A DNA stretch of 64,000 nt from Paenibacillus durus ATCC 35681 (lineage in GTDB: Bacteria; Bacillota; Bacilli; Paenibacillales; Paenibacillaceae). The notes under the pieces are model-generated. The model did no database searches and had not been told where the DNA came from. It worked only from the letters and a program-made list of their open reading frames with translations. The stretch's first letter is position 1. Each line of letters opens with the position of its first letter. Location: NCBI RefSeq assembly GCF_000993825.1, contig NZ_CP011114.1:1426001-1490000 (forward strand). The letters are read 5' to 3'. The position numbers and the translations under genes were made by a program. Positions 6,301 through 63,320 of this stretch are shown here, in pieces.

Positions 6301-6408
6301 ATGCTGGATGCAGGAATGATCGTGCTGTTTGTTCTGCTAACTGCGTGTATGGCTGGACTCTTATTCTGGGCCGGACGGGTTGTGGAGGAAGGAAGTGTGC
6401 GGGAATGA
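6301..6408 (+). CDS. 35-residue membrane protein coupled to kdpF
   Basis: The ATG at 6301 follows a strong AAGGGGGG site and opens a 35-codon frame: a hydrophobic helix of about 22 residues (MIVLFVLLTACMAGLLFW) and then a short charged tail (GRVVEEGSVRE). Its TGA overlaps the kdpF start as ATGA, which indicates translational coupling. This is the layout expected of a genuine micro-protein of the Kdp operon. I do not recognise the family by name. A role as an accessory or regulatory subunit of the pump is inference from position only. Confidence 0.65.
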   Translation: MLDAGMIVLFVLLTACMAGLLFWAGRVVEEGSVRE

Positions 6409-6485
6409 TTTGGGTTCTGGGAGTGATTGTGCTTTTCATGTTCGGGTATTTAACTTACGTCTTGCTGAACCCGGAAAAATTTTAA
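6405..6485 (+). CDS. kdpF: Potassium-transporting ATPase subunit KdpF
   Basis: This 26-residue protein is a single transmembrane helix (MIWVLGVIVLFMFGYLTYVL) ending in LNPEKF, the KdpF signature just before KdpA. KdpF stabilises the KdpFABC complex in the membrane. The start ATG overlaps the stop of the preceding small ORF. A longer frame reading in from 6204 crosses that ORF out of frame and is not credible. Confidence 0.88.
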   Translation: MIWVLGVIVLFMFGYLTYVLLNPEKF

Positions 6486-6516
6486 TTTGCTGTTTCCAGG
6501 AGGGATAGAAATTACT

Positions 6517-8187
6517 ATGATAGCCATCGTTTCCATCATGGTTACCTTGCTGCTCGTTTTGCTGTTGGCACGTCCAGCAGGCTTATATATCGCCAAAGTG
6601 TTCGATTATGACAACACACAATTAGACCGATTTTTCGGACCTATTGAAAAAGTGATTTTTGCCATTGGGGGAATCAGGCAGGAAAATCAGTCGTGGAAAA
6701 AATACGCTGCCGCACTGCTCGTCAGCAACACCGTGATGATCGCTTTGGTCTACGTGATTTTTCGGACACAAGGTTATCTGCCGCTGAATCCGGCTCATGT
6801 ACCCAATATGGAGCCAAGGCTTGCGTTTAATACAGCCATTAGTTTTATGACCACAACGAATCTGCAGCATTATAGCGGTGAAAGCGGCATGTCCTACTTG
6901 TCGCAAATGATCGCCGTCGTCTTTATGATGTTTGTGGCTCCGTCGTCCGGGCTGGCGGTATGCATCGCATTCATCCGTGGACTTGCCGGGAAACCGTTCG
7001 GGAACTTTTTTGTTGATTTGATCCGCTCGATTACACGCATTTTGCTGCCGATTGCTTTTGTGATGGCGTTTGTTTTTATCGCCCTTGGTGTGCCCCAGAC
7101 GCTGGAACCGAACGCGATTGCCCAGACGCCATCTGGTACGGAGCAGTCCATAGCTCGGGGGCCGATCGGCTCATTTCTGTCGATTAAGCAGCTTGGCAAT
7201 AACGGCGGCGGATTCGTAGGGGCGAACTCCGCGCACCCATTCGAGAATCCTGACGCCATTAGCAATTTACTGCAGATTTTGCTGATGCTGCTGATTCCGA
7301 CCGCAATGCCCTTTGCTTACAGCAAGGTCGTCGGGAATGCCAAGCAGGGCCGCGTTTTGTTCGTATCTATGGCTTTACTCTTCATCATTCTGCTTAGCGC
7401 ATCGCTAGTTGCAGAATATGCGGGCAACCCGGCTCTGAATGCTCTGGGCATCAACCACAGCCAGGGGAGCATGGAAGGTAAGGAAGTGCGGTTCGGTGCG
7501 GCGCAATCTTCCTTGTATTCCGTTGTAACTACCGCTACGGAGACGGGGGCCGTTAATACGATGCATGATACCCTGACTCCAATTGCCGGATTGGCTGCCA
7601 TTGCCAATATGATGCTGAACACCGTGTTTGGCGGCGCTGGCGCGGGACTCTTGCATGTACTGATGTATGCCATCATTGGGGTGTTTTTATCGGGCTTGAT
7701 GGTCGGACGGACACCGGAGTTCCTGGGCAAAAAAATAGAAGGCAAGGAAATGAAGCTCATTGCGGTGACGATGCTCATCACCCCTTTTCTTGTATTAGGG
7801 CCTACTGCCCTGGCTGTATTTAGCCATGCGGATACCATCTCCAATCCGGGATTCCACGGACTGACACAGGCCATGTATGAATTCACTTCAGCAGCGGCGA
7901 ACAACGGCTCCGGGTTTGAAGGATTGGGAGACAATACTGCCTTTTGGAATATTTCTACAGGGATGGTCATGTATATCGGAAGATTCTTCCCGTTCATTAC
8001 AATGCTGGCTGTTGCAGGGTCCTTGGCCGCTAAAAAACCGGTAGCGGAAACGACAGGGACCTTTCGAACGGATACGGCATTATTTGCGGTGGTGTTTCTC
8101 GCCGCTGTGCTTATCGTTGGAGCATTGACGTTTTTCCCGGGTCTTGTACTCGGTCCCATTGCAGAGCAATTAACCTTGAAGCCTTAA
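6517..8187 (+). CDS. kdpA: Potassium-transporting ATPase, K+-binding subunit KdpA
   Basis: A 556-residue membrane subunit, the normal size, that holds the selectivity filter for K+. The four channel-like repeats are seen through TTTNLQHYSGESGMS, NNGGGFVGANSAHPFENP, TTATETGAVNTMHDTLTPI and TSAAANNGSGFEGL. The ATG at 6517 follows AGGAGGG with a slightly long gap of 12 bases. It is the second of four structural genes in order F-A-B-C, the standard high-affinity K+ uptake operon used when external potassium is low. Confidence 0.97.
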   Translation: MIAIVSIMVTLLLVLLLARPAGLYIAKVFDYDNTQLDRFFGPIEKVIFAIGGIRQENQSWKKYAAALLVSNTVMIALVYVIFRTQGYLPLNPAHVPNMEPRLAFNTAISFMTTTNLQHYSGESGMSYLSQMIAVVFMMFVAPSSGLAVCIAFIRGLAGKPFGNFFVDLIRSITRILLPIAFVMAFVFIALGVPQTLEPNAIAQTPSGTEQSIARGPIGSFLSIKQLGNNGGGFVGANSAHPFENPDAISNLLQILLMLLIPTAMPFAYSKVVGNAKQGRVLFVSMALLFIILLSASLVAEYAGNPALNALGINHSQGSMEGKEVRFGAAQSSLYSVVTTATETGAVNTMHDTLTPIAGLAAIANMMLNTVFGGAGAGLLHVLMYAIIGVFLSGLMVGRTPEFLGKKIEGKEMKLIAVTMLITPFLVLGPTALAVFSHADTISNPGFHGLTQAMYEFTSAAANNGSGFEGLGDNTAFWNISTGMVMYIGRFFPFITMLAVAGSLAAKKPVAETTGTFRTDTALFAVVFLAAVLIVGALTFFPGLVLGPIAEQLTLKP

Positions 8188-8214: not shown

Positions 8215-10242
8215 ATGAATCAGAAAAAATCCGCTTTGAGCAGAGAAATTATGCAAAATGCGATTAAGGAATCCTTCTTGAAGCTTGATCCGAGAGTCAT
8301 GATCCGCAATCCGATTATGTTCGTGGTTGAAGCGGGTTTTATCATCACCTTGATTTTGATCGTTGTGCCGGGTGCATTTGGAGGGGGTACACCTAGATGG
8401 TTTAATTTGGTGGTATCGGTCATCCTTCTGTTTACTGTGCTTTTTGCGAACTTTGCCGAGGCTCTTGCGGAAGGACGAGGCAAAGCGCAAGCCGATTCCT
8501 TGAAAAGAACGAAAAAAGAGATTACAGCCAATAAAATCACGGGAAATGGAGTCAAGACGGTTTCCTCTACAGATTTGCGCAAAGAGGATGTTGTCCTTGT
8601 TGGGCAAGGAGAAACGATCCCAGGTGACGGCGAAGTGATCGAGGGGCTGGCTTCAGTCGATGAATCCGCCATTACTGGCGAATCCGCGCCGGTTATCAAA
8701 GAAGCGGGCGGCGATTTCAGTTCGGTTACCGGCGGTACCCGTGTCATCAGCGATCAGATCAAGGTGCGTATAACAAGCGATCCCGGTGAATCGTTTCTTG
8801 ACCGGATGATCTCTTTGGTTGAAGGAGCCAAAAGACAAAAGACGCCGAACGAAATCGCCCTAACGACGGTTCTCACCAGTTTGACGCTGATTTTTCTGAT
8901 TGTGGTGGTCACGCTTCCGTTTTTTGGCGCTTATTTGAATATAGAAATCGAGGTTCCTGTACTTGTCGCTTTGCTGGTATGTCTCATTCCGACTACCATC
9001 GGCGGACTGCTGTCGGCGATCGGTATTGCCGGAATGGACCGGGTAACCCAATTTAATGTACTTGCCATGTCCGGTAAAGCTGTGGAAGCGGCGGGAGATA
9101 TCAATACGATCATTTTGGATAAAACAGGCACGATAACGTACGGGAACCGGATGGCCAGCGAATTTCTTCCGGTTGGTACCGAGACTGTGGCTGATGTTGC
9201 GAGGTGGGCCGCTATTAGTTCTGTGAAGGACGAGACACCGGAAGGCCGGTCTGTTCTGGAACTGATTAAGCAGCAGAACCTTTCTTATGATGCGGGGCTT
9301 GCAGATGGAGGCGAGTTTGTGGAATTTAAAGCGGAAACCCGAATGAGCGGGATCGACTTGAAGGATGGCCGCCATGTACGCAAGGGTGCGGTTGATGCCA
9401 TCAAAAAATGGGTAGCCGGGCAAGGGGGAGCCGTTCCGGCAAACCTCGATAAGAATAGTGACAGTGTGGCTTCCGCGGGCGGAACCCCCCTTGCCGTCGC
9501 AGTGGATAACCGCATCTATGGGATTATTTATTTAAAGGATACGGTTAAGCCTGGTATGCGTGAGCGTTTCGAGCAGATGCGTCAAATGGGCATCAAGACG
9601 ATTATGTGTACGGGCGACAACCCGCTGACGGCTGCCACGATTGCGCGGGAAGCGGGTGTGGATGATTTTATCGCGGAAAGCAAACCGGAAGACAAGATCG
9701 CCGTTATCCGCCGGGAGCAGGATGAAGGAAAGCTGGTGGCCATGACCGGAGACGGGACGAACGATGCTCCGGCTCTGGCCCAGGCGGATGTAGGCATTGC
9801 CATGAACAGCGGCACGGTAGCAGCCAAGGAAGCGGCCAACATGGTGGATCTGGATTCCGACCCTTCCAAGATCATTGAAGTTGTGGCGATTGGCAAGCAA
9901 TTGCTGATGACCAGAGGCGCGTTGACCACCTTCAGCATTGCCAACGATATTGCGAAATATTTCGCTATTATTCCCGCCATGTTTATGATAGCCATTCCGG
10001 AGATGGATGTGCTGAATGTCATGAAGCTGGGTTCCCCGATGTCGGCGATAATATCCGCGCTTATTTTTAACGCGATCATTATTCCGCTGCTGATCCCGCT
10101 GTCCATGAAAGGTGTGGCATACAAGCCGGTTAGTTCGGCGCGATTGTTAAGCCGCAATTTGTTTGTGTATGGTTTGGGTGGAGTAATTGTGCCTTTTGCC
10201 GGAATCAAAATCATTGACCTCTTGGTGCATTTGTGGGTATAA
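8215..10242 (+). CDS. kdpB: Potassium-transporting P-type ATPase KdpB
   Basis: This 675-residue P-type ATPase energises K+ uptake. The phosphorylation site is Asp302 in [12 protein letters not shown]. The actuator loop [10 protein letters not shown], the hinge [21 protein letters not shown] and the nucleotide-domain motif GRSVLELI are present. Family length and order of domains are normal. The ribosome site GGAAGGGAGGAAG lies just before the ATG. It lies 27 bases after kdpA. Confidence 0.97.
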
Positions 10243-10264: not shown

Positions 10265-10837
10265 ATGAGGTTAATAGCTGCAAGTCTTCGTACAAGTTTA
10301 ATGCTCATGGTATTATGCGGGCTTCTCTATAATTGGAGTGTGACCGGGATTGCGCAGCTTGTGTGGCCGAAGCAAGCCGGCGGCAGTCTGGTCTTTAATG
10401 ACAATGGAGATGTGATTGGTTCAGAGTTGATCGGTCAATCTTTTACGGATTTAAAGTTTTTTCAGGGGCGTGTATCAAGCATTGATTATCATGCGGAAAG
10501 TTCAGGATCTCCCAATTATGCGCCTTCGAACCCCGATTTGTTGAATCGTGTAATGCTTTCGGTGGAGGATTGGCGGAAAAATAATCCAGATGTTCCTGTC
10601 AGTCAGCTTCCTGTTGACCTGATTACGAATTCGGGTTCCGGATTAGACCCTGATATCAGTCCTAAAGCGGCTAAAGTTCAAATTCCGCGAATCAGCAAGC
10701 TGACCGGGATTACTCCCCAAGCGCTGGAATCGCTTGTAAATGAATACTCCGAGGGAAGGAAGCTGAGTTTTCTGGGCGAACCGGTTGTGAACGTATTGAA
10801 GCTGAATATCGCTTTGGAAAAATTGATTGCCCATTAA
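10265..10837 (+). CDS. kdpC: Potassium-transporting ATPase subunit KdpC
   Basis: A 190-residue subunit with one N-terminal membrane helix and an extracellular domain. The KdpC signatures GSxLIGQSF ([18 protein letters not shown]), [16 protein letters not shown] [29 protein letters not shown] [18 protein letters not shown] and the C-terminal [10 protein letters not shown] are all present. It closes the structural part of the operon. The 110 bases before the next gene contain a CCCTG/CAGGG pair that might form a weak attenuating hairpin. Confidence 0.96.
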
Positions 10838-10947
10838 GCAAACTTGAAACGAATCCCTGTTCAAATTAATTGGGCAGGGTGCTTCCATTTTCAACGATAG
10901 AAATGATTTCACATGAGAAGGGCAGGTACAGCCGGGGGAGGATTTCT

Positions 10948-13278
10948 TTGGAAAATTTTAAACGAAAATCGCCGGAAGAAATTTTATATTCGATTAATCA
11001 GATTCACCGCGGCAGGCTGAAGGTTTACATTGGACCGGTTAGCGGTTCGGGGAAAACGTACCACATGCTGCGGGAAGGGCAATCGCTAAAGCAGCAGGGA
11101 ATAGATGTTGTCATTTGCGCGGTTTCGACGATGCAGCGGCCAGAGACCATTGAACAAGTCGGAGATTTGGAAAGAATACCAAGCATTCATTGGATGAAAG
11201 ATGGCGTTGAACAGAAAGATTTGAATATGGATGCGTTATTGAAGCGCAACCCGGAGGTTGTTTTGGTCGATGAGCTGGCGCACCGGAACCGGAAGGAAGC
11301 GGAGTACCCGACAAGGCTTGAAGATATAAAAATTTTGCTCGATCAAGGCATCAGTGTCATCACGACCATTAATGTCTACGAACTGGAAGGGGTGACGGAG
11401 CTTGCCCGGAAACTGACCGGCATTAAAGTGACAGAGACGGTCCCCGCCGATACATTGGAGCTTGCTGATGAAGTGCGGCTGATCGATGTAACGCCTGAAA
11501 CCCTTCTGGAGCGCTTGTCGGCTGGACATATGGGGAATCAGCATCCCGGGTTATTCAAGCGGGGGAATTTAGGTATCCTTCGTGAATTGGCGCTGCGCCA
11601 GATGGCCGGAGATGTGAATGATTCACTGGAAAAGTACCGGGAAGAAGAGGGCTTGCTTGGACCATCGGGAGCGACAGAACGGATTCTGGTGTCTGTGCAA
11701 TACCATTGGAATGGTTCTATTTATGTGCGCAGAGGTCAGCAGATTGCCAAACGGCTAAACGGGGATTTGATGATTGTCTCGTTCGTCAACCCGAACAAGC
11801 CCTTATCCAAAGAAGCGGCAGCGTTTAAGCACTCCATCATCCAACTGGTTAAAAAAGTGGAAGGCGTGTTCGAAGAAATTCCTCTCGTTTCCCGCAGGGC
11901 CTTGCCTCGGAAATTGGTGAATTATGCCGTAGAGCATAATGTGACGAGAATCGTGATGGGGCATTCCAAACAAAGTGTCTGGCAGGAAATTTGGAAGGGC
12001 TCTGTTGTGAACGGGCTGCTCAAAAGAATCCGAAATGTGGATCTTTTTTTCGTTGCCGACCGGGCGGAACAAGATGGAGAACGAATTCTTCCAACAAGGA
12101 GCAACAAGCAAAAAGACTATGGTCCTTATCACAGACTAACCAGTCAAGAAGTACAAAAACAGATTCAGAAGATCAAAAGAGGCAAATTTAAAGTTTACAT
12201 CGGCGCCGCGCCGGGAGTAGGCAAAACGTATACGATGCTGCGGGAAGGAAATGATTTGCTTAAAAAAGGAATTGATGTGGTCCTTGGTCTTCTGGAAACT
12301 CACGGCCGCGAAGAAACGAAGGCACAGATCGGGTCTTTATCTATAATCCCGCGCTCGCAAATAGCGTATCGTGGAGCTTCATTGGAAGAAATGGATCTTG
12401 AAGCCATCTTGCAGCGCAACCCGGAAGTCGTATTGATTGATGAGCTGGCTCATACCAATGTACCAGGCAGCAAAAATAAAAAGAGGTATGAGGATGTTAT
12501 AGAAGTTCTGAACGCTGGCATCTCCGTCATTTCCACCATGAACGTCCAGCATTTGGAGAGCTTGAACGATGCAGTGGAGCAAATTACCGGAATCCGTGTC
12601 AGGGAAACGGTTCCTGACCACATGCTGCGGCTTGCGGATGAAGTGCAATTGATTGATGTTGCGCCAAAGTCGTTGCAGCAGCGCATGAAAGAAGGAAAAA
12701 TATATGCAATGGACAAGGTCGATCAAGCGCTCAATTCTTTTTTTAAGACTGGCAATCTGATCGCCCTTCGGGAACTGGCGTTAAGAGAACTTGCGGATGA
12801 TGTAGATGAACGGCTGGAGTCCCTGGACAGAAAGGATTCATTTAGGGGACCCTGGCGCAGGAAGGAAACGATATTTGTCGGTGTAACCACAAGCTGCAAT
12901 GCGGAAAGGCTGATCCGCAGAGGGTTTCGCATCGCCTATCGGCTAAAGGCCGCCTGGTATGTGATGTATGTCCAGAAAGGGACGGATGTGCCGGAAAATG
13001 TGAGCAAAAGAATCGAAACGCTGAAGGAACTGACAACCCGTTTGGGAGGAACGTTTGAGCTGCAATATACAGAACACGACAAGCAGGCAGCTTCTATTTT
13101 ACTGGATAAAGCCAATGAATATGCCAGCACTCAAATGATTGTCGGACACTCCCAAAAGAGCTTTTGGGATAAATTGCGGAAAGGTTCCATTGTGAAAATG
13201 ATCCTTCGCCATGCGAGACACATGGATGTATTGATTGTTGCTGATTTTGATCCGAATGTTCGAATGATAAAAAGTTGA
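10948..13278 (+). CDS. Double KdpD-sensor/USP protein without histidine kinase
   Basis: This 776-residue protein is two copies of the KdpD N-terminal unit in tandem: KdpD1 (about 12-225), USP1 (244-370), KdpD2 (402-620) and USP2 (638-766). Neither the DUF4118 membrane part nor the HisKA/HATPase kinase of full KdpD is present. Copy 2 is canonical: Walker A GAAPGVGKT (419-427), ETHGREE (450-456), Walker B VVLIDELAHTN. Copy 1 has diverged: GPVSGSGKT (29-37), VSTMQRPE in place of ETHGREE, and VVLVDELAHRN. In USP2 Thr647, Ser649, Trp670 and Tyr674 fall at the spacing of the S. aureus c-di-AMP motif; USP1 has lost these positions. The start is TTG at 10948 behind GGGGGAGG; the frame upstream lacks a site. 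No kdpE follows. A role in sensing potassium or c-di-AMP and acting on the pump or a distant partner is inference. Confidence 0.9.
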   Translation: MENFKRKSPEEILYSINQIHRGRLKVYIGPVSGSGKTYHMLREGQSLKQQGIDVVICAVSTMQRPETIEQVGDLERIPSIHWMKDGVEQKDLNMDALLKRNPEVVLVDELAHRNRKEAEYPTRLEDIKILLDQGISVITTINVYELEGVTELARKLTGIKVTETVPADTLELADEVRLIDVTPETLLERLSAGHMGNQHPGLFKRGNLGILRELALRQMAGDVNDSLEKYREEEGLLGPSGATERILVSVQYHWNGSIYVRRGQQIAKRLNGDLMIVSFVNPNKPLSKEAAAFKHSIIQLVKKVEGVFEEIPLVSRRALPRKLVNYAVEHNVTRIVMGHSKQSVWQEIWKGSVVNGLLKRIRNVDLFFVADRAEQDGERILPTRSNKQKDYGPYHRLTSQEVQKQIQKIKRGKFKVYIGAAPGVGKTYTMLREGNDLLKKGIDVVLGLLETHGREETKAQIGSLSIIPRSQIAYRGASLEEMDLEAILQRNPEVVLIDELAHTNVPGSKNKKRYEDVIEVLNAGISVISTMNVQHLESLNDAVEQITGIRVRETVPDHMLRLADEVQLIDVAPKSLQQRMKEGKIYAMDKVDQALNSFFKTGNLIALRELALRELADDVDERLESLDRKDSFRGPWRRKETIFVGVTTSCNAERLIRRGFRIAYRLKAAWYVMYVQKGTDVPENVSKRIETLKELTTRLGGTFELQYTEHDKQAASILLDKANEYASTQMIVGHSQKSFWDKLRKGSIVKMILRHARHMDVLIVADFDPNVRMIKS

Positions 13279-63111: not shown

Positions 63112-63117
63112 AAGGCT

Positions 63118-63305
63118 AAATCCTGCGATGTACGTTATCGGCTGCTCGTTGTTTTGAACCAATGATAATGTCTTGGGAGATCTACATGAAGCGCAGCTGA
63201 AAGGCCCTGTCTATATGACAAGGGGACTTCAAAACCGCAACTGCGATCACCCACCTGCTATTGCAGGTTCAGAAGACACTGTAGCCGGACGGCATAGGCG
63301 GGTTT
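63118..63305 (+). ncRNA. ssrS: 6S RNA
   Basis: A length of about 185 bases is consistent with 6S RNA. The closing stem is CCTGC-G-ATG (63122-63130) with CAT-AG-GCGGG (63293-63302), and the bases just inside (ATGTACG and GGACGGCAT) mirror the 6S core of E. coli (ATGTTCG, GGCGGCAT). The central bubble is flanked by TTTTGAACC and GGGGACTTCAAAACCGC, and hairpins TGTCTATATGACA and ACCTGCTATTGCAGGT lie on the arms. A T-rich tail follows. 6S RNA binds the main RNA polymerase. I base this on structure, without covariance testing. Confidence 0.85.
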
Positions 63306-63320
63306 TCTTTTATCGCGTAC

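Follow-up and report, generated by a model that had tools for sequence, protein, structure and literature searches.

A doubled short KdpD behind kdpFABC in Paenibacillus durus, a candidate soluble off-switch of the potassium pump

In Paenibacillus durus ATCC 35681, the gene that follows kdpC in one of the kdp operons encodes a short KdpD protein doubled within a single chain: two head-to-tail units, each a KdpD domain followed by one universal stress protein (USP) domain, with nothing else in its 776 amino acids. The gene lies in a window of 64,000 nucleotides (contig NZ_CP011114.1, positions 1,426,001 to 1,490,000, forward strand), which is the whole stretch of DNA analyzed here. In our preferred explanation, to which we give a probability of about 0.6, the doubled KdpD would be a soluble off-switch of the KdpFABC pump in which the two halves form an internal heterodimer. 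A FastTree phylogeny of 157 units split such doubles into type A, comprising the window's protein, those of Paenibacillaceae and others, and type B from other families, unfused pairs included. The gene and its parts are located as follows (window coordinates).

10948..13278, + strand: doubled short KdpD gene of two KdpD+USP units, TTG start, 776 amino acids plus stop
11005..11616, + strand: KdpD domain of copy 1 (NTD1)
11032..11058, + strand: Walker A of copy 1, GPVSGSGKT, complete
11122..11145, + strand: VSTMQRPE of copy 1, replacing ETHGREE
11266..11289, + strand: Walker B of copy 1, VDELAHRN, Glu present here
11371..11391, + strand: NVYELEG of copy 1, replacing NVQHLES
11677..12060, + strand: USP domain of copy 1 (USP1), from modelled fold, conservation and positions
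11698..11718, + strand: USP1 loop QYHWNGS, strongly conserved among type-A copy 1 units
12175..12804, + strand: KdpD domain of copy 2 (NTD2), predicted active serine kinase (PF02702, 325.4 bits)
12202..12228, + strand: Walker A of copy 2, GAAPGVGKT
12436..12459, + strand: Walker B of copy 2, IDELAHTN, Glu kept in 55/55 type-A loci
12865..13245, + strand: USP domain of copy 2 (USP2), from Pfam Usp and positions

The surrounding open frame runs from 10870 to 13278 (+), and the likely start is the TTG at 10948, with GGGGGAGG directly before it; the resulting length of 776 amino acids compares with 767 to 803 in the best 120 database matches. The closest protein among the matches listed is also from Paenibacillus durus (96% identity). 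PF02702 matched twice within the one frame, with 237.6 bits in copy 1 and 325.4 bits in copy 2, and NF038185, whose model represents one unit of 373 positions, aligned to two stretches. The whole protein reached 809.5 bits against the NF038185 cut-off of 550, whereas each half alone fell below it (334 or 486 bits). The name of that family, KdpD-like non-kinase potassium sensor, is at odds with the serine kinase activity since established. The Pfam Usp model found a single stretch, the second USP, and USP1 has a USP-like fold in structural models. Searches with Pfam gave no match to DHp or CA histidine kinase, transmembrane or GAF domains. The protein therefore shares with the canonical KdpD histidine kinase, such as the one encoded elsewhere in this genome (L005), the N-terminal KdpD domain and the USP, and differs in that this N-terminal part is duplicated and the transmembrane, GAF, DHp and CA parts are absent. 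Many database entries nevertheless call these proteins "histidine kinase," a name that does not fit their sequence.

The doubled gene starts 110 bases after kdpC. The gene 3' of it encodes a GNAT acetyltransferase, which leaves no histidine kinase to be joined to it by a downstream frameshift. A sequencing or assembly artefact is refuted, since the genome is a single contig of 5.58 Mb, the two copies are only 37% identical over 382 aligned residues, and the same architecture occurs in other families of Bacilli and in 33 of the 41 genomes sampled from the genus, where one frame holds two or more PF02702 matches. The preliminary description of this DNA had proposed exactly two KdpD+USP units, and had considered an artefact or a frameshifted kinase as ways in which it might be wrong; the two-unit architecture is upheld and neither of these was found.

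The KdpD domain is reported to be an atypical serine kinase that phosphorylates KdpB at Ser162 and thereby inhibits it, phosphorylation being abolished by E110A or D109A and nearly abolished by mutation of Walker A or of W39/R190 (PMC11018627). The earlier statement that the protein has no kinase domain thus fails, because the KdpD domain itself is the kinase and copy 2 has the residues needed. The motifs had been read correctly: GAAPGVGKT, LETHGREE and, in its USP, T647, S649, W670 and Y674 in copy 2, with GPVSGSGKT and VSTMQRPE as the counterparts of the first two in copy 1. Copy 1 has indeed lost ETHGREE and the USP positions, but its Walker A is complete and the Asp-Glu pair of its Walker B is intact. 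The Lys and Thr of Walker A, the Asp and Glu of Walker B and the adenine Arg are present in both copies of the window's protein, and NTD2 is predicted to be an active serine kinase.

Across type A, the two copies follow different patterns. In copy 1, K37, T38, D109 and R190 are retained in 45/45 units, whereas Glu110 is replaced in 51 of 53 genomes, by Gly in 42 and by Asp in 2 in the full-protein alignment used for these counts (the unit alignment differs slightly, with Asp in 4); the window and L095 are the two exceptions. Copy 2 has the Glu in 55/55 type-A loci (two genomes counted twice), and Glu110 is invariant in single units (30/30) and in both copies of type B (B1 and B2, 16/16 each). 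A pattern search of the best 120 database proteins, with both copies readable in 118, returned Gly in 105 and Glu in 4 for copy 1, compared with Glu in all 118 for copy 2. The E of ETHG is kept in 0/45 type-A copy 1 units and the H in 2/45; outside this group the H is invariant, and the sole substitution of the E is by D, in B1 and P1. Likewise, the Q and H of NVQH are universal among the other units compared and found in 0/45 of these, and their replacement is itself conserved (Y or F for Q, E or D for H). Both changes, of the E/H of ETHG and of the QH of NVQH, are carried by the window's copy 1. Judged by its residues, type-A copy 1 looks like a pseudokinase half that binds nucleotide. The subfunctionalisation suggested in the preliminary description is therefore supported as an asymmetric division of labor, with kinase residues diverging in copy 1 and kept in copy 2. 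If instead both halves were active kinases, with duplication serving dosage or a two-site contact with the pump complex, we would understand why the window's copy 1 retains Walker A, the Asp and Glu of Walker B and R190, and why both type-B copies keep all of those residues (16/16 each). We consider this unlikely, as Glu110 of copy 1 is kept in only 2/53 of the type-A genomes, and the ETHG and QH replacements extend to the window's copy 1.

Copy 1 does not appear to be decaying, as judged by low median dN/dS values in all four domains: 0.050 for NTD1, 0.052 for USP1, 0.036 for NTD2 and 0.072 for USP2 (NG86; 19 to 21 usable of 40 pairs). Mean column identity was higher in NTD2 than in NTD1 (0.769 versus 0.657; difference 0.112, 95% interval 0.059 to 0.169, 55 loci), while USP1 was conserved above USP2 (difference 0.109, 95% interval 0.033 to 0.182, 55 loci), and the Q, Y and N of its Q-Y-H-W-N-G-S loop were invariant in 45/45 type-A copy 1 units. 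The better-conserved kinase head and the better-conserved USP thus lie in opposite halves, which counts against the earlier proposal of a sensing copy 2 and a structural copy 1. A functionless remnant in copy 1, leaving a protein that acts as a single-unit KdpD serine kinase, could explain why NTD1 lost residues kept elsewhere and is the less conserved head, and why the Pfam Usp model misses USP1. It is nonetheless highly improbable, since copy 1 is full-length in the 45 type-A units compared, evolves at a dN/dS of about 0.05, keeps its ATP-site residues in 45/45, has a conserved replacement motif (Y/E), and contains the more conserved of the two USPs.

The pump genes stand directly 5' of the doubled gene and include the predicted target of its kinase half.

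6405..6485, + strand: kdpF (Pfam PF09604)
6487..8187, + strand: kdpA
8215..10242, + strand: kdpB
8683..8685, + strand: Ser157 of TGES in KdpB, predicted phosphorylation target, equivalent of E. coli Ser162
10265..10837, + strand: kdpC

The TGES motif was present in 100 of the 101 kdpB frames checked. The doubled gene resembles the short KdpD serine kinase of D. geothermalis (Q1J2K3; PMC11018627) in its KdpD+USP units free of transmembrane, GAF and histidine kinase domains, in the catalytic residues of copy 2, in its place after kdpC, in the TGES serine of KdpB and in the diadenylate cyclases encoded in the genome (two such domains here). It differs in having two units in one chain (776 versus 365 amino acids), the first with changed kinase residues. 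Since a plain member has one unit of about 365 to 390 amino acids, we regard the window's protein as a variant of this kinase. By this comparison, high potassium would lead to a cytosolic signal, most likely cyclic di-AMP (c-di-AMP), acting on the USP part, as is known for a short KdpD; the KdpD domain of copy 2 would then phosphorylate Ser157 of KdpB, and the pump would stop. The KdpD domain of copy 1, with its ATP-binding residues kept and the shared kinase residues lost, may be a pseudokinase that gates the active half or sets its position, which is the new part of the proposal. The two USP domains would hold the halves together, as modelled, in the manner of tandem USP proteins, and transcription of the window's kdpFABC would be controlled by something other than the doubled KdpD. 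The preliminary description had reasoned that control of kdpFABC must use another output; that idea is superseded, as phosphorylation of KdpB is already known for a short KdpD.

Regarding the ligand, a five-position c-di-AMP motif, (A/G/C)XSXSX2N plus Y/F, has been described for S. aureus (PMC8214093). USP2 has 3/5 of these positions and USP1 0/5; the full-length KdpD of the same genome (L005) has 4/5, with a loop, SPS-X20-WTAVY, that resembles the motif. The kinase of the short KdpD from D. geothermalis is reportedly stimulated by c-di-AMP (PMC11018627), and its KdpD has 1/5 of the positions, so the motif is not diagnostic and counts neither for nor against binding here. A single-unit KdpD from Bacillus has also been reported as a c-di-AMP binder (PMC11302148).

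An internal pseudodimer, as the preliminary description had suggested, is supported at the level of models: two AlphaFold models built from non-overlapping alignments paired USP1 with USP2 in the way seen in tandem USP proteins. UspE, Rv2623 and TTHA0350 likewise have two USPs per chain, and the arrangement predicted for the window's protein (pTM 0.42 to 0.43) agrees with theirs; one half of TTHA0350 is reported as diverged (PMC3673472). Unlike in these proteins, each USP of the window is preceded by a P-loop KdpD domain, and unlike in UspE, the ATP motif G-X2-G-X9-G-(S/T) is absent, GHSK and GHSQ having no second Gly while the final GS is present (read from the sequence). Matches to two-headed ATPases, namely ArsA and KaiC in one structure comparison (rmsd 20 or more) and KaiC and RecA in two others (rmsd 15 or more), were not accepted as a sign that the kinase heads pair.

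The position of the gene is also informative. Whether doubles always end kdpFABC was a question raised earlier; of 31 type-A loci, 28 have the gene starting no more than 350 bases 3' of kdpC. The three exceptions have a kdpB-like gene in between (L093), a divergent kdpFABC (L086) or no kdpFABC (L082). Fused type-B doubles lie within the same distance in 13/16 loci, with gaps of 0.7 to 1.8 kb in L069, L073 and L079. Transcriptional settings are more variable. Upstream of kdp, on the operon strand, a c-di-AMP riboswitch was found in 10/11 type-A loci of one set and 3/10 of another; none was detected upstream of the window's kdp operon, whether at the gathering score or with E allowed up to 5, and the genome has five matches elsewhere. 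Histidine kinase and KdpE-like genes adjoin several doubled loci, and the doubled gene accompanies the pump also at loci where neither was found in the stretch fetched. Transcriptional control thus differs between loci that retain the doubled gene, which is what a post-translational switch would predict.

A mainly transcriptional role, in which the protein would be a scaffold or ligand sensor acting on KdpD/KdpE or another two-component system, must be weighed against these data. KdpD and KdpE are encoded at the second kdp cluster of the genome, kdpABC-kdpD-kdpE (C1:3,893,745-3,901,612, within L005, C1:3,886,000-3,904,000), whose KdpD has 910 amino acids and a histidine kinase. The earlier claim of no KdpE or histidine kinase consequently holds locally and not genome-wide, and the kdpE-like gene that the description proposed to look for was found there. 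Moreover, the order kdpD(HK)-kdpE-kdpFABC-double occurred in 6/6 fetched clusters of the genus that had been selected for a nearby long KdpD frame, and E. coli UspC is said to bind the USP of KdpD (PMC2714519). We still doubt such a role, since the doubled gene stays with the pump where no histidine kinase or KdpE was found nearby, many of these operons have a c-di-AMP riboswitch, and the conserved kinase site of copy 2 points to catalysis. As candidate KdpE sites, two TTTATAC repeats stand 5' of the second kdp operon and none stands 5' of the window's; this contrast was not used, because such hexamers are patchy across the upstream regions compared.

Several observations weigh against the off-switch as we propose it. 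The window's copy 1 is one of the 2/53 that keep Glu110, so that its putative loss of catalysis rests on the ETHG and QH changes, and dS is nearly saturated in the NG86 pairs (medians 1.4 to 2.0). Neither USP has the complete S. aureus motif, and the ligand is accordingly inferred from relatives. Both models have a pTM of only 0.42 to 0.43, and both of their alignments come from one family, with rows 65 to 96% identical to the first. In the first model, some matches to single-USP structures take residues from both halves, so its USPs may be wrongly intertwined, and neither model fixes the relative placing of the two kinase heads. Finally, 18 of the 33 genus genomes with a double have a separate same-strand KdpD frame (868 to 931 amino acids) 8 to 12 kb upstream, and our explanation offers no reason for such an additional kinase.

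The doubled form is widespread. NF038185 matches were present in 245 of 295 genomes of the family, with a best E of 1e-90 or lower in 215, and every open frame among the matches listed had 759 to 915 amino acids, although some could be full-length KdpDs. In the class Bacilli, 192 of 398 genomes had matches, those listed being single units of about 360 to 465 amino acids in some families and doubles in others; two genomes among them had two adjacent single-unit genes, each with a ribosome-site-like stretch. Carriers named among the database matches listed belong to Paenibacillus, Cohnella, Brevibacillus, Effusibacillus and Heyndrickxia, and one double (G712) lies outside Bacilli. We recognized no doubled or pseudokinase KdpD in the titles and abstract openings of the papers that literature searches listed; the main text of PMC11018627 mentions no duplicated KdpD, two KdpDs or Paenibacillus, and its supplement may list the doubled form.

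Each of A1, A2, B1 and B2 formed one clade, with support for A2 of 0.50 in the 157-unit tree and 100 in two other trees (91 and 50 units). A single duplication common to both types was rejected by approximately unbiased (AU) tests on 50 units (LG+G4, full-length KdpD left out; p = 0.002), as was a grouping of A2 with B2 alone (0.006); A1 with B1 alone (0.065) and a union of all doubles (0.21) were not rejected. Rejection of the shared duplication makes two independent duplications likely, though not certain. The single full-length KdpD in the 157-unit tree was placed beside A1 with a support of 0.07. Two genomes carry two doubles each: G550 has a type-B double beside kdpFABC (L081) and a type-A double (L082) with no kdpABC in the fetched 13 kb, and G526 has its type-A double (L086) and another double on separate contigs. 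Frames of about 215 to 260 amino acids that match the USP part only of the KdpD model occur in many Bacillota genomes (e.g., G013:C1:2979508-2979894).

Another recurrent component of these operons is a small membrane open reading frame (ORF).

6301..6408, + strand: ORF of 35 amino acids with a single transmembrane segment, directly 5' of kdpF; the stop codon overlaps the start codon of that gene

Conserved single-transmembrane ORFs of about 27 to 36 amino acids precede kdpF in many relatives. With a cut-off of E <= 1e-5, a profile built from 23 type-A peptides matched 53 of the 90 distinct kdp loci, including 30 of the 59 that were neither in the training set nor full-length-only, and 0/2163 control ORFs at E <= 0.01. 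It matched 5/14 single-unit loci, 0/15 type-B loci, where similar ORFs are nevertheless seen by eye, and 0/8 loci with full-length KdpD only, a contrast that is no clean test as the loci compared are related. Pfam and NCBIfam gave nothing above cut-off for five such peptides, and a literature search on such a small peptide listed nothing that we recognized. The peptide may be a pump subunit not described before, or it may anchor to the membrane a KdpD that lacks transmembrane segments. A fuller and decidedly tentative version of the kinase with a built-in pseudokinase would join these elements: the ATP-binding head of copy 1 and the USP1 pocket (QYHWNGS) would form a second input gating copy 2, the pump would be shut only when two nucleotide signals agree, doubles would have arisen at least twice, and the pre-kdpF peptide may bring the kinase to the pump.

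Further features of the kdp loci and the window were recorded alongside. Tandem c-di-AMP riboswitch aptamers precede kdpFABC in 7/11 type-A loci of the first set and in L202 of the second; the tandem-aptamer loci are L089, L092, L097, L099, L102, L103, L104, L202 and L107, the second aptamer of L099 being barely over the cut-off and L107 being a single-unit KdpD locus. A putative KdpE-like regulator, a histidine kinase and a c-di-AMP riboswitch share one kdp locus in L099 and L101, which runs counter to the statement that KdpE and this riboswitch are mutually exclusive (PMC6488665). Broken genes or sequencing errors divide kdpB into two or three open frames at L075 and L076, two kdp loci of one genome, and kdpA into two pieces at L069. 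The window also contains a 6S RNA at 63117-63308 (+).

The doubled KdpD opens to test whether the KdpD serine kinase operates as a dimer that is joined through its USPs and has a single active head. Because its two halves are naturally linked in one chain, mutations can be placed in either half separately, which would show what each contributes to a KdpD assembly. Doubling of this kind also seems to be a frequent solution, among Paenibacillaceae and several other Bacilli, for post-translational shutdown of the high-affinity potassium pump.
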